Shown piece after piece: positions 2,168-63,662 of a stretch of 64,000 bases of DNA (the stretch's first letter is position 1; the number at the start of each line of letters is the position of its first letter). The notes beneath the pieces were generated by a model, which saw only the letters and a program-made list of their open reading frames with translations, had not been told where the DNA came from and did not search any database. This DNA is from Oricola nitratireducens (GTDB taxonomy: Bacteria > Pseudomonadota > Alphaproteobacteria > Rhizobiales > Rhizobiaceae), in the NCBI RefSeq assembly GCF_014904745.1, contig NZ_JACZCS010000035.1, forward strand, positions 1 to 64,000, read 5' to 3'. Position numbers and translations under genes: made by a program.

Positions 2168-3268
2168 TCACTCCGCCGGCATGTTGCCGTGACCCTGCCG
2201 GCGCATGAAGCCGAAGGCCGATCCCTCGACCAGATAGCCGAGGCCGAGGCGTGCGCCGAAGGCGATGCTTATCATTGCGATCGGCGCCGACAGCGCCATC
2301 ACGGATACGGCGCTGACTCCCTGACCGATGGTGCAGCCAAGCGCGAACACGCCGCCGGTTCCCATCAGGAACGCACCGAGCAGATGCCGGCTCAGTTCGC
2401 GGGCATCGTCGCAGGCTTCCCAGCGCATGTCGTTCGACCGCCATGCGCTCAGCGTCGCGCCGAGCAGCACGCCGCCGACGAGGCCGACACCGTAGTCCGG
2501 CAGTACTCCGGTGACGGTGATGATCTGCAGCATTGCGTCGCCGAGCGGCATGACGAAAGACCCGGCTTCAAGCTGTACGGGTTCGAAAAGGTGCTGTGAC
2601 AATTGCGACGTGACGAACCAGCCGGCGGCGATGCCCGCGCCGATAATGGCGCCCGAGATCATCCGTTCGCGGTTGCGCCGGAAGGCGGCATCGCGAAACA
2701 CCCAGAAAAACAGGCCGGTGGCAGTGACGATGGCGAGCGGGAAGGAGAGATCGAAACTGGTGAGACTGGAGAGGATCGCGCCGGCCGACTGGCCGCCAAG
2801 TCCGCCGAAATCGATGGACAGCGGGTCGATCAGTGCCAGGCGCGCATGGCCGGTCAGGCCGCGCTGGGCCGCGAGCGCTGCAAGCGCGATGCCCGTCAAC
2901 ACGACGAGCGCGCGCATGTTGCCGCCGCCGAGCCGGATGATGGCGCCGAAACCGCATGTGCCGACCAGCGCCATGCCGATGCCGAACATGACGCCGCCGA
3001 GGATCGTGCCGGCGACGGGCAGCGGTTCGGTCAGATAGAAGCTCGAGGATACGTCGATCCATCCGAGCGCGATCATCGACTGGGTCAGCGCAAGGGCGAC
3101 CGCGGCGGCAAGCACCCAGGCGCGCACGCCGGAACTGTCGCCGGCATACCAATGGCGCTCGAGCGCCGACATGGTGCAGAAATGATATCGCCGCGCCGCA
3201 AATCCGATGATCGAGCCGATAACGAGGCCGGCCACTGGCAGCGACCAGGCGCTTTCCAGTAAAAGCAT
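2168..3268 (-). CDS. soxT: YeeE/YedE-family transporter, SoxT-like
   Basis: A 366-residue polytopic membrane protein with the same three-cysteine signature as the paralogue at 9-1121: FCTMS at residue 31, VGTCGFGAI, and LGCTIGQG near the C-terminus. The ATG is preceded by GGGAGG. It lies downstream of soxR on the same strand with a gap of about 100 bases, so soxS, soxR and this gene may be one transcript. Paracoccus-type sox clusters carry soxT, a transporter of this family, next to soxR and soxS, which supports the name. Transport of thiosulfate or a sulfane signal into the cytoplasm, where SoxR senses it, is the working inference. Confidence 0.82.
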   Translation of the reverse strand: MLLLESAWSLPVAGLVIGSIIGFAARRYHFCTMSALERHWYAGDSSGVRAWVLAAAVALALTQSMIALGWIDVSSSFYLTEPLPVAGTILGGVMFGIGMALVGTCGFGAIIRLGGGNMRALVVLTGIALAALAAQRGLTGHARLALIDPLSIDFGGLGGQSAGAILSSLTSFDLSFPLAIVTATGLFFWVFRDAAFRRNRERMISGAIIGAGIAAGWFVTSQLSQHLFEPVQLEAGSFVMPLGDAMLQIITVTGVLPDYGVGLVGGVLLGATLSAWRSNDMRWEACDDARELSRHLLGAFLMGTGGVFALGCTIGQGVSAVSVMALSAPIAMISIAFGARLGLGYLVEGSAFGFMRRQGHGNMPAE

Positions 3269-3372
3269 CCTGATTCCTCCCGCGCTTCTGACGGCGCATT
3301 TTTTTTTCGAAATTGCCCGTTTTCCCGGGGATTGGCAAGGCGGCCGTGGAGGACGGGCCTTGCTGGCTTTCG

Positions 3373-3717
3373 CTACACCTTGCGCACCGGGCGGCAGAAC
3401 AGCTCGTAGAGTGTCTCGACGACGGAGGCGACTTCCTTGCCCGCGACGCTATAATAGATCATCCGGCCTTCGCGCCGCGTGTGCACCAGACGGTCGAATC
3501 TGAGCCGCGCCAGCTGCTGCGAAACCGCGGCCTGCGGCATCGACAGGATCTCTTCCAGTTCCGAGACCGATTTCTCTCCTTCGGACAAAATGCACAGGAT
3601 CAGGAGACGCGTCTCGTGGGAGAGCGCTTTCAGGAGGTCGCTTGCCACGCGCGCCTGTTCGATCAACGCATTGGCGTCGGCGGCATCCATGTCCGGGATG
3701 AATTTTGGCAGAGGCAT
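3373..3717 (-). CDS. soxR: SoxR, ArsR-family persulfide-responsive repressor
   Basis: A 114-residue winged-helix protein. The recognition region reads SMPQAAVSQQLARLR (about 59-73), followed by the wing around EGRMIYYS. Cysteines occur at positions 42 and 108 only, exactly those of BigR and one off SqrR, where a tetrasulfide or disulfide forms between them and releases the DNA. SoxR of other alphaproteobacteria represses sox genes by binding the soxS-soxV and soxW-soxX intergenic regions; both regions exist here. It belongs to the leftward soxS-soxR-soxT gene set. The family and cysteine pair are seen directly; the effector and targets are inferred from homologues. Confidence 0.9.
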   Translation of the reverse strand: MPLPKFIPDMDAADANALIEQARVASDLLKALSHETRLLILCILSEGEKSVSELEEILSMPQAAVSQQLARLRFDRLVHTRREGRMIYYSVAGKEVASVVETLYELFCRPVRKV

Positions 3718-51607: not shown

Positions 51608-51635
51608 CTTTCGTTTCTAGTTGGAGGGAGACCAC

Positions 51636-52775
51636 ATGAATCTGATAACCAAATCGCTCGCCGCGCTGGCGGTTCTCGGCATGACGTCTGCCGCATTCGC
51701 TGAGCCGGTGAAGGTCGGCATGATCACGACGCTTTCGGGCGGCGGCGCGAGCCTCGGGATCGATGCCCGCGACGGCTTCATGCTCGCGATCAAGCAGTCG
51801 GGCAACAAGGACGTGGACGTCGTCATCGAGGACGACCAGCGCAAACCGGACGTTGCGGTCCAGATCGCCGACAAGATGATCCAGTCCGACAAGGTCGACA
51901 TCCTGACCGGCATTATCTGGTCGAACCTGGCGATGGCCGTGGTTCCGGCAGCGGTCGCGCAGGGCAAATTCTATCTTTCGGTCAATGCCGCGCCGTCGCA
52001 GCTCGCCGGAAAGGGCTGCAATGCCCATTATTTCTCGGTTTCCTACCAGAACGACAATCTGCACGAGGCCGCCGGCGCCTATGCGACGGATGCGGGCTAC
52101 AAGAACACCTTCATCCTCGCGCCGAACTATCCCGCCGGCAAGGATTCGCTGACTGGATTCAAGCGCTTCTACAAGGGCGAGCTTGCCGGGGAGGTTTACA
52201 CCCAGCTCGGCCAGACCGATTATGCCGCCGAGATCGCGCAAATCCGCGCGTCCGGCGCCGACAGCGTGTTCTTCTTCCTGCCAGGTGGCATGGGCATCGC
52301 CTTCATGAAGCAGTATGCGCAATCCGGCGTCGACATCCCGCTGATCGGACCGGCCTTCTCGTTCGACCAGGGCATCCTGCAGGCCGTCGGCGACGCGGCG
52401 CTCGGCGTCAAGAACACAGCCAACTGGTCTAAGGACATCGACAACGCGGCCAACAAGGCATTCGTGGAAGGCTTCCAGGCTGAATACGACCGGTTGCCGT
52501 CGATTTACGCATCCTACGGCTACGACACGGCCAACCTGATGCTGTCGGCGCTTGCCAAGGCATCTCCGTCCGACGCCGACGCGTTCCAGAAAGCGCTCGA
52601 AGCCGCCGATTTCAATTCGGTGCGCGGCAAGTTCTCGTTCGCCTCGAACCACCATCCGATCCAGGACATTTATGTGCGCGAGGTCGTCAAGGAAGGCGAC
52701 ATCCTGACCAACAAGATCGTCGGAACGGCGATGACAGACCGCAGCAATGCCTATGTCGACGACTGCAAGATGTAG
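51636..52775 (+). CDS. HAAT ABC transporter substrate-binding protein, second system
   Basis: A 379-residue LivK-type binding protein with a signal peptide ending AFA-EPVKVG and GGAGGGAG before the ATG at 51636. It differs markedly from the binding protein at 25886: the ligand region reads TGIIWSNLAMAVVPAAVAQGKFYLSVNAAPSQLAGKGC. That pattern resembles binding proteins for aromatic or amide ligands. It is the first of five transporter genes in order K-H-M-G-F. Confidence 0.87.
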   Translation: MNLITKSLAALAVLGMTSAAFAEPVKVGMITTLSGGGASLGIDARDGFMLAIKQSGNKDVDVVIEDDQRKPDVAVQIADKMIQSDKVDILTGIIWSNLAMAVVPAAVAQGKFYLSVNAAPSQLAGKGCNAHYFSVSYQNDNLHEAAGAYATDAGYKNTFILAPNYPAGKDSLTGFKRFYKGELAGEVYTQLGQTDYAAEIAQIRASGADSVFFFLPGGMGIAFMKQYAQSGVDIPLIGPAFSFDQGILQAVGDAALGVKNTANWSKDIDNAANKAFVEGFQAEYDRLPSIYASYGYDTANLMLSALAKASPSDADAFQKALEAADFNSVRGKFSFASNHHPIQDIYVREVVKEGDILTNKIVGTAMTDRSNAYVDDCKM

Positions 52776-52790
52776 TCGATGAGTGTCCGG

Positions 52791-52820
52791 CGGGCCGCGC
52801 GGTGAAGCAGCCCGTTTTTT
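52791..52820 (+). terminator. Hairpin plus T tract between binding protein and permease
   Basis: CGGGC pairs with GCCCG across a 14-base loop and is directly followed by TTTTTT (52815-52820). It lies 15 bases after the binding-protein stop and before the permease start, so partial termination could set a high binding-protein to permease ratio. The stem is short. Confidence 0.4.
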
Positions 52821-52848
52821 CGCTCCTCGTAATCCGGATGCCGTTTCC

Positions 52849-53769
52849 GTGAGCGCAGCCCTTTTGATCGAACAGGTCCTCAATGGCCTGCAACTCGGCG
52901 TCATGCTGTTCGTGATGGCGGCGGGGCTGACGCTGATCTTCGGCGTCATGGGGCTGATCAATCTCGCGCATGGCTCGCTCTATATGGTCGGCGCGTTCGC
53001 CTGCGCGGCGGTTGCCGCCGCGACCGGTTCGTTCTGGCTCGGGCTGGCGGCGAGCCTCGCCGCCGCGGCGATCACGGGAGCAATCGTCGAAATCGTCGTG
53101 ATCCGGCGGCTTTATAGCCGCGACCATCTCGATCAGGTTCTCGCGACCTTTGCGCTGATCCTGATCTTTTCTGAAGGCACGCGCTGGCTGTTCGGCTCGT
53201 TCCCGCTTTACCTCGACGTCCCGCCGATCCTGTCGGGCGCGGTGCCGCTGCCGGGCGGCGGGGCCTATTCGCTCTATCGCCTTGCGATCATCGGCGCGGG
53301 AATTCTCGTCGCGGCGGGGTTGTTCCTGCTGATCGGCAGGACGCGGCTCGGCATCCGCATTCGCGCCGGCGAGGCGGACCGGGAAATGATCGCGGCTCTC
53401 GGCGTCGATATCGGGCGGCTCTACACGATGGTCTTCGCGCTCGGCGCGGCGCTTGCCGGCTTCGCCGGCGCGCTTGTCGGCACCATCCAGTCGGTTCAGG
53501 TCGGCATGGGAGAGCCGGTGCTGATCCTTGCCTTCGTCGTGATCGTCATCGGCGGGATCGGCTCGATCAAGGGCGCTTTCATCGGCGCGCTGCTGGTCGG
53601 TATTACCGATACGCTCGGACGGTTCCTGCTGCCGATCGCCTTCGGCACCGTGATGAACGCGTCCGACGCCACCGCCGTCGGTTCGGCGCTCGCCTCGATG
53701 CTGATCTACATCCTGATGGCGGTGGTGCTTGTTGTGCGTCCCGGCGGCCTCTACGGGACGGCGACCTGA
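52849..53769 (+). CDS. HAAT ABC transporter permease (LivH-type), second system
   Basis: A 306-residue permease from a GTG at 52849; the N-terminus SAALLIEQVLNGLQLGVMLFVMAAGLTLIFG fits LivH. No strong ribosome-binding site marks this start, and a GTG at 52783 in the same frame is possible but falls before the hairpin and T tract. The GVMGLINLAHGSLYMVGAF and RLGIRIRAGEADREMIAALGVDIGR motifs are present. It overlaps the next gene by one base. Confidence 0.87.
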   Translation: MSAALLIEQVLNGLQLGVMLFVMAAGLTLIFGVMGLINLAHGSLYMVGAFACAAVAAATGSFWLGLAASLAAAAITGAIVEIVVIRRLYSRDHLDQVLATFALILIFSEGTRWLFGSFPLYLDVPPILSGAVPLPGGGAYSLYRLAIIGAGILVAAGLFLLIGRTRLGIRIRAGEADREMIAALGVDIGRLYTMVFALGAALAGFAGALVGTIQSVQVGMGEPVLILAFVVIVIGGIGSIKGAFIGALLVGITDTLGRFLLPIAFGTVMNASDATAVGSALASMLIYILMAVVLVVRPGGLYGTAT

Positions 53770-54749
53770 TGCTGCGCGAGACACCGGTCAATATCGCTCT
53801 TGTCCTGCTGCTGCTCACGGTTCCCGTGGCGGCATCGGCAATGGACGAACCCTTCATCGTCACGCTGGCGACCAAAGTCGCGATTTTTGCTACGGCGGCG
53901 GTTGGGCTCAATATCGCGCTCGGCCATGGCGGGCTGGTCTCCTTCGGGCACGCCGCTTTTTTCGGCATCGGCGGCTACGGGGCCGGGATCCTGGCCAGCC
54001 ACGCCCAGAATTACGAACCCCTGATGACATGGCCTTTCACGGTCGAGGGCACGCAGCAGATGCTGATCATCTGGCCGGTGGCGCTCCTCGCTGGCGGGAT
54101 CGCCGCGTTGGCGATCGGGGCGCTCAGCCTGCGCACATCCGGCGTCTATTTCATAATGATCACGCTCGCCTTTGCGCAGATGGTTTTCTATTTTGCGGTT
54201 TCATGGCCGGCCTATGGCGGCGAGGACGGATTGCCGATCTATGTGCGCAACTCATTTCCCGGGCTGAACACGCTCAGGCCGCTGGATTTCTTTGCCGTCG
54301 CTTTCGTGTGGTTCCTCGCGGCCACGCTGTTCTCAATCCTGCTGTCGCGGTCGCGCTTCGGCCTTGCCTTGCAGGGCGCGCGCCAGAACGTCGAGCGCGT
54401 GCGCGCCGTCGGCATCGATCCTTATCGCCTGCGCCTCGTCGCCTTCACCATCTCCGGCATGATCACCGCGCTGGCAGGCGCGCTCTATGCCGATCTCAAC
54501 CGTTTCGTCAGCCCGTCGATGCTATCGTGGCAGACATCGGGCGAGATCATGGTGTTTATCATCCTCGGCGGAGTGGGCCGACATTTCGGCCCGCTGGCGG
54601 GCGCGGCGCTGTTCATCCTGCTGGAATACGCGCTCGGCGGTGTCAGCGAATACTGGAAGTTCTTGCTCGGCGTGCTGTTGCTGCTGGTCGTTCTGTTCGC
54701 CCATGGCGGCCTGATCGGCGTCGTAACGCGGAGGCGGCACCATGGCTGA
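53769..54749 (+). CDS. HAAT ABC transporter permease (LivM-type), second system
   Basis: A 326-residue permease with the LivM motifs LNIALGHGGLVSFGHAAFFGIGGYGAG and RSRFGLALQGARQNVERVRAVGIDPYRLRLVAFTISG. It overlaps both neighbours. The C-terminal tail ends in RRRHHG. It partners the LivH-type subunit. Confidence 0.9.
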   Translation: MLRETPVNIALVLLLLTVPVAASAMDEPFIVTLATKVAIFATAAVGLNIALGHGGLVSFGHAAFFGIGGYGAGILASHAQNYEPLMTWPFTVEGTQQMLIIWPVALLAGGIAALAIGALSLRTSGVYFIMITLAFAQMVFYFAVSWPAYGGEDGLPIYVRNSFPGLNTLRPLDFFAVAFVWFLAATLFSILLSRSRFGLALQGARQNVERVRAVGIDPYRLRLVAFTISGMITALAGALYADLNRFVSPSMLSWQTSGEIMVFIILGGVGRHFGPLAGAALFILLEYALGGVSEYWKFLLGVLLLLVVLFAHGGLIGVVTRRRHHG

Positions 54750-55491
54750 ACCGATCCTCGAAATTCGGGACCTGACGAAATCGTTTGGCGCGCTGACCGT
54801 AAGCGACCATATCTCGCTCGACCTCCGTGCCGGCGAAATCCATGCGCTGATCGGGCCGAACGGGGCCGGAAAATCCACTCTCATCAAGCAGATATGCGGT
54901 GAGCTTCAACAGGATAGCGGATCGATCCGTTTCGCGGGGCGCGATCTTGCCGGAACTGGCACGGTGGAGCGGGCGCGGCTCGGCCTGGCGCGGACCTTCC
55001 AGGTCTCCTCGGTGGCGCCGGAATTCACCACTCTGCAGAACGTCGTGCTGGCGGTGCAAGGGGCGAGCGGGAGAAGCTTCGGCTTCCTGCGCCCGGTGCT
55101 GTCCGACCCGTCATTGACGGGACCGGCCCGCAGGCACATGGAGCGGGTCGGCCTGACGGGGCGCGAGAACATCCTGGCATCGATCCTGTCGCATGGCGAG
55201 CGGCGGCGGCTGGAACTGGCGATGGCGCTCGCCATGGAACCGCATGTCTTCCTGCTCGACGAGCCGATGGCCGGGCTCGGGCCGGAAGGGTCGGTGGAAT
55301 TGACGGCAATCCTCGCCAATCTGCGCCACGAGGCGCCAATCCTGCTCGTGGAGCACGACATGGACGCGGTCTTTGCGCTCGCCGACCGGATTTCGGTGCT
55401 TGTCTATGGCCGTATCATCGCCACCGGTAACGTCGACGACATCCGCTCCAATCCGGAAGTCCAGAGCTCCTATCTCGGGGAGACGGCATGA
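54742..55491 (+). CDS. HAAT ABC transporter ATPase (LivG-type), second system
   Basis: A 249-residue ATPase with Walker A GPNGAGKST, Q-loop RTFQVSS, signature LSHGERRRLELAMAL and Walker B VFLLDEPMAGLGPEG. The LSHGE signature is a known LivG variant. It begins 8 bases inside the LivM gene. Confidence 0.9.
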   Translation: MAEPILEIRDLTKSFGALTVSDHISLDLRAGEIHALIGPNGAGKSTLIKQICGELQQDSGSIRFAGRDLAGTGTVERARLGLARTFQVSSVAPEFTTLQNVVLAVQGASGRSFGFLRPVLSDPSLTGPARRHMERVGLTGRENILASILSHGERRRLELAMALAMEPHVFLLDEPMAGLGPEGSVELTAILANLRHEAPILLVEHDMDAVFALADRISVLVYGRIIATGNVDDIRSNPEVQSSYLGETA

Positions 55492-56177
55492 GCGCGCTGC
55501 TCGAAGTCTCCGGCCTTACGGCCTTCTATGGCGCTTCGCAGGCGCTTTTCGGCGTCGATCTGACGGTCGGGGACGGCGAGTGTGTCGCTCTGATGGGGCG
55601 CAACGGCATGGGCAAGACGACCACCGTTCTGACGATCATGCGGATGCTTCGGCACAGCGGTGGCAGTATCCGTTTCCGCGGGCGGGACCTCGGGCCGTTG
55701 CCGTCACACAAGGTCGCGCAGGCGGGGATCGGGCTCGTGCCGGAGGGCCGGCGCTGTTTCGGACCGCTGACGGTGGAGGAAAACCTCGTCGCGGCGGCGC
55801 GGCCTGGAGAGTGGGACCTCGGGGCGGTTGAAAAGCTGTTCCCGCGCCTGGGCGAGCGGTTGTCGCAAAAGGCGGGGCTATTGTCCGGCGGCGAACAGCA
55901 GATGCTGGTGATCGGCCGCGCGCTGATGACCAATCCGCAGTTGCTCATTCTGGACGAGGCGACGGAGGGGCTGGCGCCCGTCGTGCGGCACGAAATATGG
56001 GCGGCGATCGGTGTGCTGAAGACGTCGGGCCTGTCGATCCTGGTGGTCGACAAGTCGATCGGCGAACTGGCAACGGTCTCGGACCGCTGCGTCGTTCTGG
56101 AAAAGGGCGCAACGGTGTGGACGGGGACGCCCGCGCAATTGTCGCCGGATGTGACGGCGCGCTATCTCGGGGTTTGA
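55488..56177 (+). CDS. HAAT ABC transporter ATPase (LivF-type), second system
   Basis: A 229-residue ATPase of normal LivF length, in contrast to the extended paralogue at 29704. Walker A is GRNGMGKTT, signature LSGGEQQML, Walker B LLILDEATEGLAP. It overlaps the LivG gene by four bases and precedes the hydrolase gene by 11 bases. Confidence 0.9.
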   Translation: MSALLEVSGLTAFYGASQALFGVDLTVGDGECVALMGRNGMGKTTTVLTIMRMLRHSGGSIRFRGRDLGPLPSHKVAQAGIGLVPEGRRCFGPLTVEENLVAAARPGEWDLGAVEKLFPRLGERLSQKAGLLSGGEQQMLVIGRALMTNPQLLILDEATEGLAPVVRHEIWAAIGVLKTSGLSILVVDKSIGELATVSDRCVVLEKGATVWTGTPAQLSPDVTARYLGV

Positions 56178-57013: not shown

Positions 57014-57982
57014 TCAGCGCTTCATCGGCGTGATGCCGAAGCTCCCGATCATTTCGGCCGGGTAGGTTTTCGGGATTAGCGGCAGGTATTTTGCGCCCTC
57101 CCGGATCAGGAACTCCTGGAATATCCGCATCACTGGCGAGGGGGTGCGGTCCGAACGCGACACGGAGAACCACTGGCGGCGGATCGGCATGCCCTCCACG
57201 TCGAGGATGACGAGACGGCCCATCTGCAATTCCTGCTCGATCGTGTGGGCGGAAATGAAGGCGATGCCGAGGCCGGCCATCACGGCCTGCTTGATCGTCT
57301 CGTTCGATCCCATCTCGGTGCCGAGATTGTCGAGCTTGCCCGGCACGTCGGCGAAGAAGACCTCCAGCGATGTGCGGGTGCCAGAGCCGGCTTCGCGCAC
57401 GAGAAACTTTTCGGCTGCGATTTCCTCTTTCGAGATGTCGCGTTTTTTCGTCAGCGGGTGGTCCGGCGGGGCGACGATGACCAGCGGATGGTCGCCGAAC
57501 AGGAATGCTTCGACCTCGATGTCGCGGGGCGGACGGCCCATCAGGACGATATCGACCATCTGGTGGCGCAGGGCATCGATCGTCTCGGCGCGGTTGCCGA
57601 TGAACAATTCGATGTCGATGTCGGGATTGTACTTCTGGAAGGCGGCGATCATGCGCGGCGTAAAATATTTCGCCGTCGAGACCGCGCCGAGTTTCAACGT
57701 TCCCTGCTTTCCGCCGCTGATGGCGGTGACCTCTTCCTCAAGTGCTCGCAAACGTTCCTGAACCGCATGTGCAGCATCCAGCACGGCCGTACCTGCGGCG
57801 GTCGGACGCATGCCGTCCGGCGTGCGGTCGAACAAAGCCAGTCCAATCTCGTCCTCGATCTGCTTCAACTGCATCGTGATGGCCGGTCCGGTCAGCCCCA
57901 AACTGTTGGCCGCCATGGATATTTTGCCGGTCTGTTCGATGGCGAGGAGGGAGCGCAGCTGGCGAAGGGTAATGTTGAGCAT
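57014..57982 (-). CDS. cbbR: CbbR, LysR-family regulator of the Calvin cycle
   Basis: A 322-residue LysR protein. The HTH region (about 18-37) reads GKISMAANSLGLTGPAITMQLKQIEDEIG, with the GPAITMQ variant typical of CbbR. The effector domain contains VSTAKYFTPRMIAAF, a CbbR hallmark. The ATG at 57982 is preferred over a TTG two codons upstream. It is divergent from cbbF across 124 bases and converges almost end to end with the hydrolase gene. CbbR activates cbb operons in response to reduced-metabolite signals. Confidence 0.93.
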   Translation of the reverse strand: MLNITLRQLRSLLAIEQTGKISMAANSLGLTGPAITMQLKQIEDEIGLALFDRTPDGMRPTAAGTAVLDAAHAVQERLRALEEEVTAISGGKQGTLKLGAVSTAKYFTPRMIAAFQKYNPDIDIELFIGNRAETIDALRHQMVDIVLMGRPPRDIEVEAFLFGDHPLVIVAPPDHPLTKKRDISKEEIAAEKFLVREAGSGTRTSLEVFFADVPGKLDNLGTEMGSNETIKQAVMAGLGIAFISAHTIEQELQMGRLVILDVEGMPIRRQWFSVSRSDRTPSPVMRIFQEFLIREGAKYLPLIPKTYPAEMIGSFGITPMKR

Positions 57983-57984
57983 GT

Positions 57985-58036
57985 TCAATATTAGTTTTTC
58001 TTACTCTAGAAATAAAGAAAATAAATTTTACTAACT
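57985..58036. promoter_or_regulatory. AT-rich cbbR-cbbF control region
   Basis: A strongly AT-rich island in GC-rich DNA lies just upstream of cbbR. It includes TTAGT (57991) and ACTAA (58030) as widely spaced inverted arms and a TTACTCTAGA stretch with several T-N11-A candidates, the LysR recognition pattern. It is the natural CbbR-binding region for both genes. The exact site cannot be fixed by eye. Confidence 0.45.
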
Positions 58037-58106: not shown

Positions 58107-59144
58107 ATGACGGCTGCAACGCTCGACGCTTATCTCAACACGTTTACCAGTTCGAACGATCCGGTGAAGATCCAGATCGCCGAGACCATCCGCGCCTTCA
58201 CGGCAGCGGCCGTTCTCGTTCGCAAATCCATCAACGAGGGCGCGCTCGGCGCCGCTTTCGCGGAAGCGCGCGGCAGTTCAAATGCCGGCGGCGACACGCA
58301 GAAAGACCTTGATGTACATGCTGACAATCTTTTCCTCGAAGGCGCACGAAGGGCGGGCATCGCCTATTACGCGTCGGAGGAACTCGCCAATCCGGTAACG
58401 ATCAATCCGGAATCGCCGATTGCCGTCGCCATCGACCCGCTCGACGGTTCGTCGAACATCGACACCAATGTCTCGATCGGCACGATCTTCTCGATCCTTC
58501 CCCGCAAGGAAGATGCCGCAACGACTTTCGCCCAGCGCGGGTCCGACCAGCTGGCCTCGGGCTTCTTCATCTACGGCCCGCAAATGGCGCTCGTCCTGAC
58601 GAAGCGCAACGGCACCCGGATCTTCGTCTTTTCGAGCCGTCTCGGCACATTCGTCGAAGCCTATCCGGCGGTCAGCATTCCGCAGTCGGCAAGCGAATTC
58701 GCGATCAATGCATCGAACTACCGGCACTGGGACGAAGCCATGCGCCTCTATATCGACGATTGCCTGGCGGGCACCGAGGGGCCGCGCGACAAGGATTTCA
58801 ACATGCGCTGGATCGCCTCGCTGGTCGCGGACACCTACCGCATCCTGATCCGCGGCGGCGTGTTTCTCTATCCGCGCGACGGCCGCAAGGGCTATGCCCA
58901 CGGACGGTTGCGGCTCGTCTACGAGGCCAATCCGATCGCGCTTCTGATCGAGGAAGCGGGCGGGGCGGCGACCGACGGCGTCAGTCGCATCCTTGAGCTC
59001 GTGCCGAGCGATATCCATCAGCGCACCCCGCTGATCTTCGGCTCCAAGAAGGAAGTCGAGAAGATCACGCGTTACCACACCGATCCCTCGGCCATCGGCA
59101 CACGTCATCCGCTGTTTGCGAACCGCGGTCTGTTCAGGGCCTGA
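58107..59144 (+). CDS. cbbF: CbbF, class I fructose-1,6-bisphosphatase
   Basis: A 345-residue enzyme with the metal-binding motif DPLDGSSNID (about 112-121), an AYYASEEL metal-ligand region and the substrate region GRKGYAHGRLRLVYEANPIA. It dephosphorylates fructose-1,6- and probably sedoheptulose-1,7-bisphosphate in the Calvin cycle. GGGAGG lies 8 bases before the ATG. It is the first gene of the cbb operon. Confidence 0.95.
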   Translation: MTAATLDAYLNTFTSSNDPVKIQIAETIRAFTAAAVLVRKSINEGALGAAFAEARGSSNAGGDTQKDLDVHADNLFLEGARRAGIAYYASEELANPVTINPESPIAVAIDPLDGSSNIDTNVSIGTIFSILPRKEDAATTFAQRGSDQLASGFFIYGPQMALVLTKRNGTRIFVFSSRLGTFVEAYPAVSIPQSASEFAINASNYRHWDEAMRLYIDDCLAGTEGPRDKDFNMRWIASLVADTYRILIRGGVFLYPRDGRKGYAHGRLRLVYEANPIALLIEEAGGAATDGVSRILELVPSDIHQRTPLIFGSKKEVEKITRYHTDPSAIGTRHPLFANRGLFRA

Positions 59145-59163: not shown

Positions 59164-60036
59164 ATGTCGCACAAGCACCCCATCATCGCGATCACCGGCT
59201 CTTCGGGCGCCGGCACGACGACCGTCAAGGACACGTTCGGGAAAATCTTCAATCGCGAGGGCGTCACCGCAGCCTTTATCGAGGGCGACGCATTTCACCG
59301 CTACGACCGCGCCGGCATGAAGGCGAAAGTCGCCGAAGAGGAAAAGAAGGGCAACGAGCATTTCTCGCATTTCAATCCCGAAGCCAACGAACTCGAGATC
59401 CTGGAAGCCGTGTTCGAGGAATATGGCCGCAAGGGCAAGGGCAAGACCCGCCACTACGTTCATGACGACAAGGAAGCGGAAGTCTTCGGCTCGGCGCCCG
59501 GCACCTTCACGGACTGGGAAGACCTGCCGGAAAGCGATCTCCTGTTCTATGAAGGCCTGCACGGGTGCATCAAGACCGGCAAAGTCGATTTGCCGAAACA
59601 TGTCGATCTGAAGATCGGCGTCGTGCCGGTGATCAATCTAGAGTGGATCCAGAAGATCCATCGCGACAAGTCCCTGCGCGGCTATTCCACCGAGGCGGTC
59701 ACGGAAACGATCCTGCGCCGCATGCCGGACTATGCGCGCTATATTTGCCCGCAATTCTCCGAAACCAACATCAATTTCCAGCGCATTCCGACGGTCGATA
59801 CGTCGAACCCGTTTGTCGCGCGCTGGATCCCGACACCATCGGAATCAATGCTGGTGATCCGTTTCGCCAATCCGCGCGGCATCGACTTCCCCTATCTGTT
59901 GTCGATGCTCGACGGCGCTTTCATGTCGCGCGCCAATTCCATCGTCTGCGCGGGCGAAAAGCTCGATCTTGCAATGCAGCTCATTTTCACGCCGCTGATC
60001 CACAAGCTGATGGATCTGAAACGCCGCGCGTCCTGA
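59164..60036 (+). CDS. cbbP: CbbP, phosphoribulokinase
   Basis: A 290-residue proteobacterial (octameric-type) phosphoribulokinase. Its P-loop is [10 protein letters not shown] (12-21), followed by [20 protein letters not shown] and the family C-terminus. It makes ribulose-1,5-bisphosphate, the step specific to the Calvin cycle. The start is the ATG at 59164, 20 bases after cbbF ends. Confidence 0.96.
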
Positions 60037-60058: not shown

Positions 60059-62074
60059 ATGAATATCCAGGCATCGGGTAAGTTGCAGTCGGACGTCGGC
60101 GAACGCGACATGGCGAACGCCATCCGCGCGCTCGCGATGGATGCCGTGCAAAAGGCGAATTCGGGTCATCCTGGCATGCCGATGGGCATGGCCGACGTGG
60201 CGACGGTCCTGTTCAATCGCTTCATCAACATCGATCCGTCGAATCCGGACTGGCCGGACCGCGACCGCTTCGTCCTGTCGGCGGGTCACGGTTCGATGCT
60301 GCAATACGCGATCCACTATCTCCTCGGCTATGACGACATGCCGATCGAGGAACTGCAGCGTTTCCGCCAGCTCGGCAGCCATACGGCCGGCCATCCCGAA
60401 TATGGCCATACCAAGGGCGTCGAGACGACGACCGGGCCGCTGGGGCAGGGACTCGCCACCGCCGTCGGCATGGCGCTCGCCGAGCGCATGATGGCCTCGC
60501 GCTTCGGCACCAAGCTGGTCGATCACTACACCTATGTCATCGCGGGCGACGGCTGCCTTCAGGAAGGCATCAGCCACGAAGCGATCGATCTCGCCGGGCA
60601 TTTGAAGCTGAATAAGCTGATCGTCTTCTGGGACAACAACCACATCTCCATCGATGGGCCAACCTCCCTGTCCACATCGATGAACCAGCCGGCGCGGTTC
60701 AAGGCCGCCGGCTGGGACGTTCACAGCGTCGACGGTCACGACATGAATCACGTCGCTGAAGCCATTGAAAAAGCGCGCAAATCAAGAAAGCCGTCATTGA
60801 TCGCCTGCCGTACGACAATCGGCAAGGGCGCGCCCAACCTGGAAGGCTCCGAAAAGACTCACGGCGCACCGCTCGGTGCGGACGAGATTGCCGCGACGCG
60901 CGCCAATATCGGCTGGCCCTACGATCCGTTCGTCGTTCCGGACGCGATCATCGACGCATGGCGCACCGTCGCCACGCGCGGCAAGGACCAGCGCGCCGCA
61001 TGGGAAGGCCGGCTGGAGACCAGCGCCCGGCGCAAGTCGTTCACGGCCGCTGTCTCCGGCGAGTTGCCAGCCCGCGTGACGCGCGAACTCGCCGCGTTTC
61101 GCAAGGAACATGTCGAAAAGGCGACCAAGGTCGCGACCCGCAAGGCTTCGGAAATGGCGCTGGGCGTGATCAACGCCGCCACCAATTTGACCGTGGGCGG
61201 GTCTGCCGACCTGACGCATTCGAACCTGACGATCACCAAGGATCTCGGCTCTATCGGGGCGGGAAACTTCAAGGGCCGCTACATCCACTACGGCATCCGC
61301 GAACACGGCATGGCCGCGGCGATGAACGGTATCGCGCTACATGGCGGCTTCATTCCCTATGGCGGAACGTTCCTGGTGTTTACCGACTATGCGCGGGGCG
61401 CGATACGCCTGTCGGCGCTGATGGGGCAGCGCGTGATCTACGTGATGACGCATGACTCCATCGGTCTTGGCGAAGACGGTCCGACGCACCAGCCGGTCGA
61501 ACATCTCGCCATGCTGCGCGCTACGCCGAATATCAACGTTTTCCGCCCGGCCGACATCATCGAGACGGCGGAAGCCTGGGAACTGGCCTTAACGACAACG
61601 GACCGGCCGAGCGTGCTGGTGCTGTCCCGCCAGGGGCTGCCGATGCTGCGCGCGGCGCATTCGAAGGAAAACCGCTCGGCGCGCGGCGCCTATGTGCTGC
61701 AGGACGCGACGCGCGGGCGTGACATCACCCTGATGGCGACCGGCTCGGAAGTGGAGATCGCGAAAGCTGCGGCCGACCGGCTTCTTGCCGACAATGGCAT
61801 CAAGGCAGCGGTCGTCTCGATGCCGTCCTGGGATCTCTTCGAAACACAGGACGCCGCCTATCAGAACGCCGTGCTCGGCGATGCGCCGCGCATCGCTGTC
61901 GAGGCTGCGGCACGGCTTGGCTGGGACCGCTGGATCGGCGGCAACGGTTCGTTCATCGGCATGAAGAGCTTCGGCGCCAGCGCGCCGGCCGCCGATCTCT
62001 ACCGCCATTTCGGAATCACGACGGATGCGATCGTCGCGGAAGCCGTCCGGCTCACCTCCGAGGGAGGTGCGTGA
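60059..62074 (+). CDS. cbbT: CbbT, transketolase
   Basis: A 671-residue transketolase. The N-terminal ThDP domain has [24 protein letters not shown] and [13 protein letters not shown]; the pyrimidine domain has [15 protein letters not shown] and [16 protein letters not shown]; a C-terminal domain follows. It rearranges C3-C7 sugar phosphates in RuBP regeneration. GAGGAGGAAC precedes the ATG at 60059. Its stop overlaps the next start (TGATG). Confidence 0.96.
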
Positions 62075-62580
62075 TGCTTTCGGCGCGGCATACGGAAGAT
62101 ACGATCCGCGGCAAGACCGCGATCATCCGCATCAGCCTGGACGGCGGCGTCAGTCACACCGCGGTGCCGCTGATCAACCGGCTGGCGGACGCCGGCGCGC
62201 GCGTCGTCGTCGTCGCCGGACTCGGCAATCCGGCCGGCGACATCAATCCGGCGCTCAGCCTGCGCCCGTTCACGGCAATGCTGCAGGAGATGACGGGCAA
62301 GCCGATCACCTTCGTCAATGAAAGCCTCGGCACCGGAGCGGAAGGCAAGCTGGCGCAGGTGCCGTTCGGCGAAATCGCGCTGATGGAAAACCTGCGGTTC
62401 CATTCCGACGAACGCCGCCGCGAGCAGGTGTTTGCCATGCGTCTATCGGTGCTCGGCGACTATTTTATCGACGCTGGCGATCCGCCGCTCAACGCGGAAG
62501 GCTGGCAAGCCGCGCTGAAGAAAATCCTGCCGGAACCCGATCTTTCGGCACCCCCGCAAAAATCCAGAGAGGAGGCTTGA
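62074..62580 (+). CDS. Orphan phosphoglycerate-kinase N-domain-like protein
   Basis: A 168-residue protein that aligns along its length with the N-terminal domain of phosphoglycerate kinase: [15 protein letters not shown] matches [26 protein letters not shown] matches GAKVMVTSHLGRP, and [11 protein letters not shown] matches the kinase LENLRFH motif. The substrate-binding residues are changed: Asp and Asn of the first motif became Ser21 and Asp23, His and Arg of the second became Gly49 and Asn52, and the DAFGTAHR motif is lost. The nucleotide-binding C-domain is absent, with the stop just before cbbA. It starts by TGATG overlap with cbbT and has GAGGGAGG. It cannot be a normal kinase; a regulatory or scaffolding role is possible. 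GAPDH (cbbG) occupies this slot in the Rhodobacter form II operon. Confidence 0.85.
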
Positions 62581-62582
62581 AC

Positions 62583-63662
62583 ATGGCCCGTATCACCCTT
62601 CGCCAATTGCTCGACCACGCGGCCGAAAACGCCTACGGCGTCCCGGCATTCAACATCAACAACATGGAGCAGGGGCTCGCGATCATGGAAGCGGCCAAGG
62701 CATGCGACGCACCGGTCATCATCCAGGCGTCGCGCGGCGCGCGCTCCTATGCCAACGACATCATGCTGACCCGGATGATCGACGCGCTGGTCGACATCTA
62801 TCCCGATATCCCGGTGTGCATGCACCAGGACCACGGCAACAACGAAGCCACCTGCATGACCGCGATCCGGCACGGCTTCACCTCGGTGATGATGGACGGC
62901 TCGCTCGAGGCCGATGCCAAGACGCCTGCTTCCTACGACTACAATGTCGAGATCACGGAGCGCGTTTCGCGCATGGCCCACTGGGTCGGCGCGTCCGTCG
63001 AGGGCGAACTCGGCGTACTCGGTTCACTTGAGACGGGCGAGGGCGAGGCCGAGGATGGTCACGGCGCCGTCGGCAAGCTCAGCCATGACCAGCTCCTGAC
63101 CGATCCCGACCAGGCCGTCGATTTCGTCACCCGCACTAAAGTCGATGCGCTGGCGATCGCCTGCGGCACGTCGCACGGCGCCTACAAGTTCACCCGCAAG
63201 CCGACCGGCGACATTCTCGCCATGCGCGTGATCGAGGAAATCCACGCCAAGCTGCCGAACACCCATCTCGTCATGCACGGCTCGTCCTCGGTGCCGCAGG
63301 AACTGCAGGACATCATCAACGAGTTCGGCGGCGCGATGCCGCAGACCTTCGGCGTGCCGGTGGAAGAGATCGTGCGCGGCATCAAGCACGGCGTGCGCAA
63401 GGTCAACATCGACACTGACTGCCGCATGGCTATGACGGGCCAGTTCCGCAAGATTGCCCAGGAAAACCCGGCGGAATTCGATCCGCGCAAGTTCCTGAAA
63501 CCGGCGATGGACGCGATGCGCGACCTCTGCCGCGACCGCTTCGAGGCCTTCGGCACCGCCGGGAACGCCGCGAAGATCAAGGTCATCCCGATGGACGAGA
63601 TGGCCAAGCGCTATGCCGCCGGCATGCTCGATCCGCAAACCGCGACCGCAAAGGCCGCGTGA
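62583..63662 (+). CDS. cbbA: CbbA, class II fructose-bisphosphate aldolase
   Basis: A 359-residue zinc aldolase of the Calvin-cycle type, starting [26 protein letters not shown]. Metal and catalytic residues lie in CMHQDHGNN (79-87) and in [13 protein letters not shown]. It condenses triose phosphates to fructose- and sedoheptulose-bisphosphate. AGAGGAGG sits at the end of the previous gene, 2 bases from which this one starts. Confidence 0.96.

Follow-up and report, generated by a model that had tools for sequence, protein, structure and literature searches.

A stand-alone phosphoglycerate kinase N-domain, probably non-catalytic and kept by selection, ahead of cbbA in Calvin-cycle operons of Oricola nitratireducens and its relatives

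Introduction

Pseudoenzymes are dead relatives of enzymes that serve as regulators or scaffolds, and in cyanobacteria and plants the protein CP12 binds and switches other enzymes. The gene described here encodes a stand-alone N-terminal domain of phosphoglycerate kinase (PGK) within the cbb operon of Oricola nitratireducens, and shares with pseudoenzymes in general the loss of an active site with fold and selection kept, but differs from them in that only one of two domains is retained. To CP12-like Calvin-cycle regulators it may be analogous in role, as a small non-catalytic protein made beside Calvin-cycle enzymes, although no sequence resemblance to CP12 is claimed. Its closest relative is the N-terminal domain of PGK itself (PF00162), with which it has in common the fold, a sequence core, one substrate arginine and descent, whereas the nucleotide domain is missing, the substrate loop is deleted, and six of seven bisphosphoglycerate residues are changed or gone in the O. 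nitratireducens protein. Other genomes (G028, G307, G367, and others) have a full-length cbbK in this position between cbbT and cbbA, in some of them along with a glyceraldehyde-3-phosphate dehydrogenase (GAPDH) gene, but it encodes complete proteins of 401–409 aa with the invariant residues present.

For human PGK, the available text of PMC3900376 gives Arg122, Arg65, Arg170, His62, Asp23, Asn25, and Arg38 as the bisphosphoglycerate residues, and that of PMC7729029 names Arg65, Arg122, Arg170, Asp23, and Asn25. In the literature searched, which consisted of titles and the beginnings of abstracts and had most subscription papers and preprints outside it, we found no description of a PGK-derived pseudoenzyme of this kind, nor of a stand-alone PGK N-domain in cbb operons of rhizobia, including in the available portions of PMC11397080 and PMC7895386.

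Results

The window, i.e., the whole 64,000-nt stretch that we analyzed (contig NZ_JACZCS010000035.1, positions 1 to 64,000, forward strand), contains a cbb operon in the order cbbF-cbbP-cbbT-[orphan PGK N-domain]-cbbA-cbbM, with cbbR divergent. The cbbR-like LysR regulator lies on the minus strand (57014..57988; Pfam LysR_substrate and HTH_1) and is divergent in relatives too. On the plus strand follow cbbF, encoding fructose-1,6-bisphosphatase (58107..59144; Pfam FBPase), cbbP, encoding phosphoribulokinase (59164..60036; Pfam PRK), and cbbT, encoding transketolase (60059..62074; Pfam Transketolase domains), the starts of the latter two having been picked by eye. Downstream of the orphan gene are cbbA, encoding a class II fructose-bisphosphate aldolase (62583..63662, plus strand; Pfam F_bP_aldolase), and cbbM, which leaves the window and continues in L036 (63694..64000, plus strand; open reading frame and tblastn maps) and which we take, from recognizing its sequence, to be a form II RubisCO. 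Ahead of cbbR (51621-56177), the translations were recognizable by eye as components of branched-chain amino-acid ABC type, with two permeases, two ATPases, and one substrate-binding protein, and similar ABC genes adjoin cbbR in G002 (L038).

The orphan gene (62074..62580, plus strand) encodes a pseudo-PGK of 168 aa, assigned by open reading frame, Pfam, phmmer, AlphaFold2/Foldseek, and selection analyses. As the preliminary description of this locus had stated, the gene is intact and closely coupled between cbbT and cbbA: its frame is open from the ATG at 62074, which shares 1 nt with the cbbT stop, to the TGA at 62578-62580, which lies 2 nt ahead of the cbbA ATG at 62583. An alternative in-frame GTG start is present at 62071, and an AGGAGG motif within the 3′ end of the gene (62570..62575, plus strand) is the likely cbbA ribosome-binding site.

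Homology to the PGK N-domain, likewise claimed at first from the letters alone, was upheld by profile, sequence, and fold. The protein matched Pfam PGK with an E-value of 3.1e-20 (73 bits; cut-off 27), and the top phmmer match in the PDB was a PGK (9e-17). The Pfam match spans only profile positions 35-138 of 379 and the frame stops near the boundary between N-domain and hinge, so the ATP-binding C-terminal domain is indeed absent. The best AlphaFold2 model, with alternating strands and helices, had a mean pLDDT of 74.7 and a pTM of 0.75, from an input of four sequences and with the other four of five models at mean pLDDT 52-57; all 50 Foldseek matches listed for it were PGKs, the best with an E-value of 7.8e-11 and a TM of 0.71 on the query. 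NCBIfam holds no dedicated model for such proteins, and eight of eight orphan members matched only a bifunctional PGK model, far under its cut-off. The O. nitratireducens genome has two PF00162 matches, namely the pseudo-PGK and a full PGK on another contig (398-aa frame) that retains the usual motifs in the alignment. A separate PGK C-domain gene was not found in this genome by the PF00162 search, and a split, two-piece PGK is thereby ruled out, the genome having no partner gene for the missing domain.

Residue equivalents were set by motif and spacing in an alignment with 28 full-length PGKs that did not include the human chain itself; by motif, all seven bisphosphoglycerate residues are invariant in 28/28 of these. 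The window protein keeps one of the seven, the Arg122 equivalent R108 (codon 62395..62397, plus strand; residue list from the available text of PMC3900376), each of the other six having been replaced or deleted. The initial claim that every 3-phosphoglycerate (3PG)-binding residue is altered thus holds for six and fails for R108, while the loss of the active site, as read from sequence, stands. A gap of ~10 residues that removes the Arg38 region of the substrate loop, located between codons 29 and 30 (62158..62163, plus strand), is common to all 20 members of the orphan clade described below when compared with the 28 full-length PGKs. Within this clade, Asn25 and Arg65 are retained in none of the 20 members, His62 likewise (Gly in 17, Ala in 3), Asp23 in 7, the Arg170 equivalent in 2 (the alignment being uncertain at this site), and the Arg122 equivalent in 17, with Ala in the other three. 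Given that the bisphosphoglycerate residues are mostly lost, catalysis and canonical 3PG binding by the pseudo-PGK appear very unlikely. Residues that differ from full PGKs and are near-invariant in the clade (G49 in 17/20, G135 in 19/20, W144 in 17/20, and P155 in 17/20) are located in the remodeled active-site loop and on the hinge side, and would fit a protein that exists as one domain; T15 is also near-invariant, but G028 and G130 have it too.

A search for orphan PGK N-domains and their neighborhoods, a check proposed in the preliminary description, yielded at least 21 genomes (nine genus codes) with a stand-alone PGK N-domain gene, in every case immediately ahead of cbbA; the carriers were taken from the best-scoring matches listed, which may not include strongly diverged stand-alone cases (the score of G130, for one, is like that of a full PGK), and the count leaves out short frames in G048, G017, G106, G061, G765, G803, G814, and G937. 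At least 20 carriers, with eight genus codes, belong to one family (searches of 151 genomes and of 394 same-family genomes). The twenty-first, G130, belongs to a different family of the same order, and it was the only stand-alone case seen outside the family among the matches listed for 397 order genomes and 385 class genomes. In a plasmid collection (E <= 1e-8), three records matched, none of them spanning 80% of the query. Four of the short frames (G048:C248:3273-3584, G061:C92:562-936, G017:C14:339-653, and G106:C454:58-372; 191-259 aa), each the sole listed PGK match of its genome, were taken for fragments of the housekeeping PGK gene.

The orphan frames of the carriers are 159–190 aa long with script-chosen starts. 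In G130 (L045), G194 (L097), and G398 (L103), the latter two being fragmented assemblies, cbbT is missing or mostly deleted after cbbP, and the orphan and the cbbA start remain. The gene had been presented as belonging to a form II operon, but it is not a mark of one: the carriers have form II RubisCO in 5/21 cases (downstream RubisCO 83-100% identical to the form II of the window) and a form I-like large subunit in 15/21 (27-31% identity to the form II of the window and, where seen, a cbbX gene), with RubisCO off the contig in one (G398). Within one genus, the cbbF-P-T-orphan-A block stays constant while the RubisCO behind it differs, being form I-like in L037 and L039 and form II in L036 and L038, which suggests that RubisCO was exchanged.

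Operon-bearing genomes, defined by a phosphoribulokinase match at E <= 1e-60, numbered 106 among the 394 same-family genomes, and 19 of the 106 have the orphan gene; G368, the remaining carrier of this family, is not among the 106, since a contig break leaves it without a phosphoribulokinase match. A full-length PGK stands at the place of the orphan in ten (G028, G181, G196, G229, G268, G307, G367, G381, G417, and G446; the contigs of G181 and G446 lack one flank), and the operon PGK of G196 and G268 may be the housekeeping copy of the genome. A GAPDH gene without PGK lies between cbbT and cbbA in three (G168, L161; G239, L175; G300, L191), and GAPDH and full PGK were observed there together in G367 (L109), G196 (L167), and G268 (L184). 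The contig ends before the junction in five (G039, G260, G262, G315, and G389). No PGK piece was detected at the junction in 69/106 genomes, where the best tblastn match in the fetched stretches had an E-value of 0.002, and given this number of operons without it, the orphan gene is dispensable and not essential to the cycle. In G186 (L163), at about 3036-3415, cbbA yielded just two short matches, as if broken.

In a tree of N-domains (49 rows), for which the program warned of long branches, including G368 and G130, the 20 orphans of the family form one side of a branch with support 100/99.9, and operon PGKs adjoin this clade. G130 has no gap and grouped with full operon PGKs (support 92/83), so a single origin of all 21 orphans is disfavored, even if a tree constraining them together was not rejected (AU p 0.17), and a second truncation likely lies behind G130. 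Given the full-length PGK at the same place in ten other genomes, the orphan originated from an operon cbbK cut near the interdomain hinge. In a phosphoribulokinase tree made by a quick method (105 rows), carriers are scattered, with eight changes, at least five of them forced by starred branches; together with the shared gap and the N-domain tree, this pattern points to a single old truncation, after which the gene was repeatedly lost or operons were exchanged. Relatives with an intact pgk in this position had been named beforehand as a sign of recent truncation; such genes do occur in the ten genomes, but the truncation is old. Recent truncation and pseudogene formation are ruled out by the shared deletion, the single clade, and the dN/dS values reported below.

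Pairwise codon models (GY94, own script) rejected dN/dS = 1 in 11/11 orphan pairs, with 2 delta lnL from 4.1 to 128.5, the lowest value, for G342-G382, only just rejecting. Relaxed selection, against which the gene was to be checked, was therefore not borne out, and with the deletion shared by the 20-genome clade, the early impression of a maintained rather than decaying gene was confirmed. Ratios ranged from 0.096 to 0.317 in the nine pairs with finite dS (G000-G004 and G002-G004 had unbounded dS, and their ratios were left unused). For cbbA, cbbP, cbbT, and cbbF, dN/dS was 0.014-0.093 in pairs where available, and in matched pairs the orphan ratio exceeded that of these genes by a factor of 1.3 to about 10. 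Pooled Nei-Gojobori estimates, from pairs that share branches and are non-independent, gave a core dN/dS of 0.188 for orphans (10 pairs) vs. 0.152 for intact operon PGKs (4 pairs). Toward the C-terminus (134-155), orphans were about twice as relaxed (0.212 vs. 0.104), and the N-terminus had 0.62 vs. 0.45. The orphan tail has a ratio of 0.55, compared with 0.118 in the part of intact enzymes beyond this point, and is weakly constrained; in the window it also carries the cbbA ribosome-binding site. Given that the core resembles that of intact operon PGKs while the tail has 0.55, constraint follows the fold and not merely the frame. Neither a broken frame nor neutral evolution, either of which would mark a pseudogene, was found; as a relative kept by selection and, judging from its residues, non-catalytic, the orphan PGK N-domain would be a pseudoenzyme, a known kind of protein.

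Discussion

We propose, with a probability of about one half, that the orphan is an old, selectively kept pseudo-PGK that acts as a non-catalytic binding partner of Calvin-cycle or PGK/GAPDH enzymes. Sequence comparison shows that a full cbbK between cbbT and cbbA was cut near the interdomain hinge, with its nucleotide-binding domain gone, and that the substrate loop and the majority of the bisphosphoglycerate residues disappeared as well. The N-domain that was left passed down through several genera under purifying selection, while other operons lack it. The pseudo-PGK may fold alone, as reported for isolated PGK domains in the available text of PMC10526189, and would be non-catalytic. It could bind an enzyme at the stretch of the Calvin cycle that leads from 3PG through BPG and triose phosphate to FBP, tuning or scaffolding it, with CbbA, CbbF, and the housekeeping PGK/GAPDH as candidate partners, and its synthesis would be tied to that of cbbA through the closely spaced frames.

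Given the constraint on the fold, the lost active site, and the constant place before cbbA, as well as the indifference to RubisCO form and the survival of the orphan without cbbT, binding of a Calvin-cycle or triose-phosphate enzyme fits best. Against this reading count the 69 of 106 operon-bearing genomes with no PGK piece at the junction, a dN/dS above that of the operon neighbors, the relaxed C-terminal part (134-155), the low pLDDT of four of the five structure models, and a comparison of distances that singles out no partner. Since a half-enzyme with its active site nearly lost has been preserved across several genera, the orphan probably has a new job. Across 16 genomes, the distances between orphan proteins correlate with the distances found for each of the five operon genes compared; partial r values were 0.44 for CbbF, 0.28 for CbbA, 0.12 for CbbP, about 0 for CbbT, and -0.25 for CbbR, and no single partner stands out among these five proteins by this comparison. 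A bolder version of our proposal, and an improbable one at present, is that a half PGK became a dedicated proteobacterial regulator of the Calvin cycle, switching an enzyme of the BPG, triose-phosphate, or FBP steps much as CP12 does.

The reading that ranks next to an enzyme-binding pseudo-PGK, though we consider it unlikely, is a translational relay, in which the frame is kept since ribosomes leaving cbbT pass through it to cbbA and the protein is idle. The orphan stop lies 0-13 nt ahead of the cbbA ATG in 21/21 carriers, 15 of which have the ribosome-binding site of cbbA within the orphan gene, as a relay would have it. However, a relay would not need the amino-acid constraint seen in the core, the orphan is retained where cbbT is gone, and a relay can be dropped altogether, as cbbT is directly ahead of cbbA within 135 nt in 51 of the 69 orphan-less operons (within 31 nt in 33).

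Slightly less plausible again is a metabolite sensor, whose N-domain pocket, made of the Arg122 equivalent and new residues, would bind a phosphorylated metabolite and report to a partner. In its favor, G130 and 17/20 clade members retain that arginine, and the former His62/Arg65 motif stretch is itself conserved (P53 in 20/20, G55 in 17/20, and N58 in 20/20). The deletion of the Arg38 region, the absence of His62, Arg65, and Asn25 from every clade member, and the three members with Ala in place of the arginine argue against it, and sensing of 3PG via the canonical site in particular seems unlikely; G130, for its part, retains the Asp23, His62, and Arg122 equivalents.

Doubtful, too, is the idea that the orphan targets the housekeeping PGK, as a partner or a competitor, binding for instance its C-domain or C-terminal peptide and altering its activity. 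In whole PGK, the C-domain makes contact with the N-domain, and the O. nitratireducens genome has one full PGK for the orphan to act on, but few parts of the orphan have changed as much as the hinge-side motif (DAFS...AHRAH). A slowly decaying relic without function is already disfavored and has little probability left, for although the gene is a truncation product under weaker constraint than its operon neighbors and is missing from many operons, its frame is open in 21/21 carriers (chosen from listed matches, none with internal stops), dN/dS is below 1 in 11/11 pairs, and the core constraint is almost that of a working enzyme.

In these operons, an enzyme of central metabolism has been cut to one domain, has lost most of its active site, and has then been retained by selection inside the operon of its own pathway. 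Relatives have the full enzyme, half of it, or nothing at one and the same place, so that its role can be probed by swaps and deletions. If the pseudo-PGK does bind a Calvin-cycle enzyme, CO2 fixation in proteobacteria would gain a new control point.
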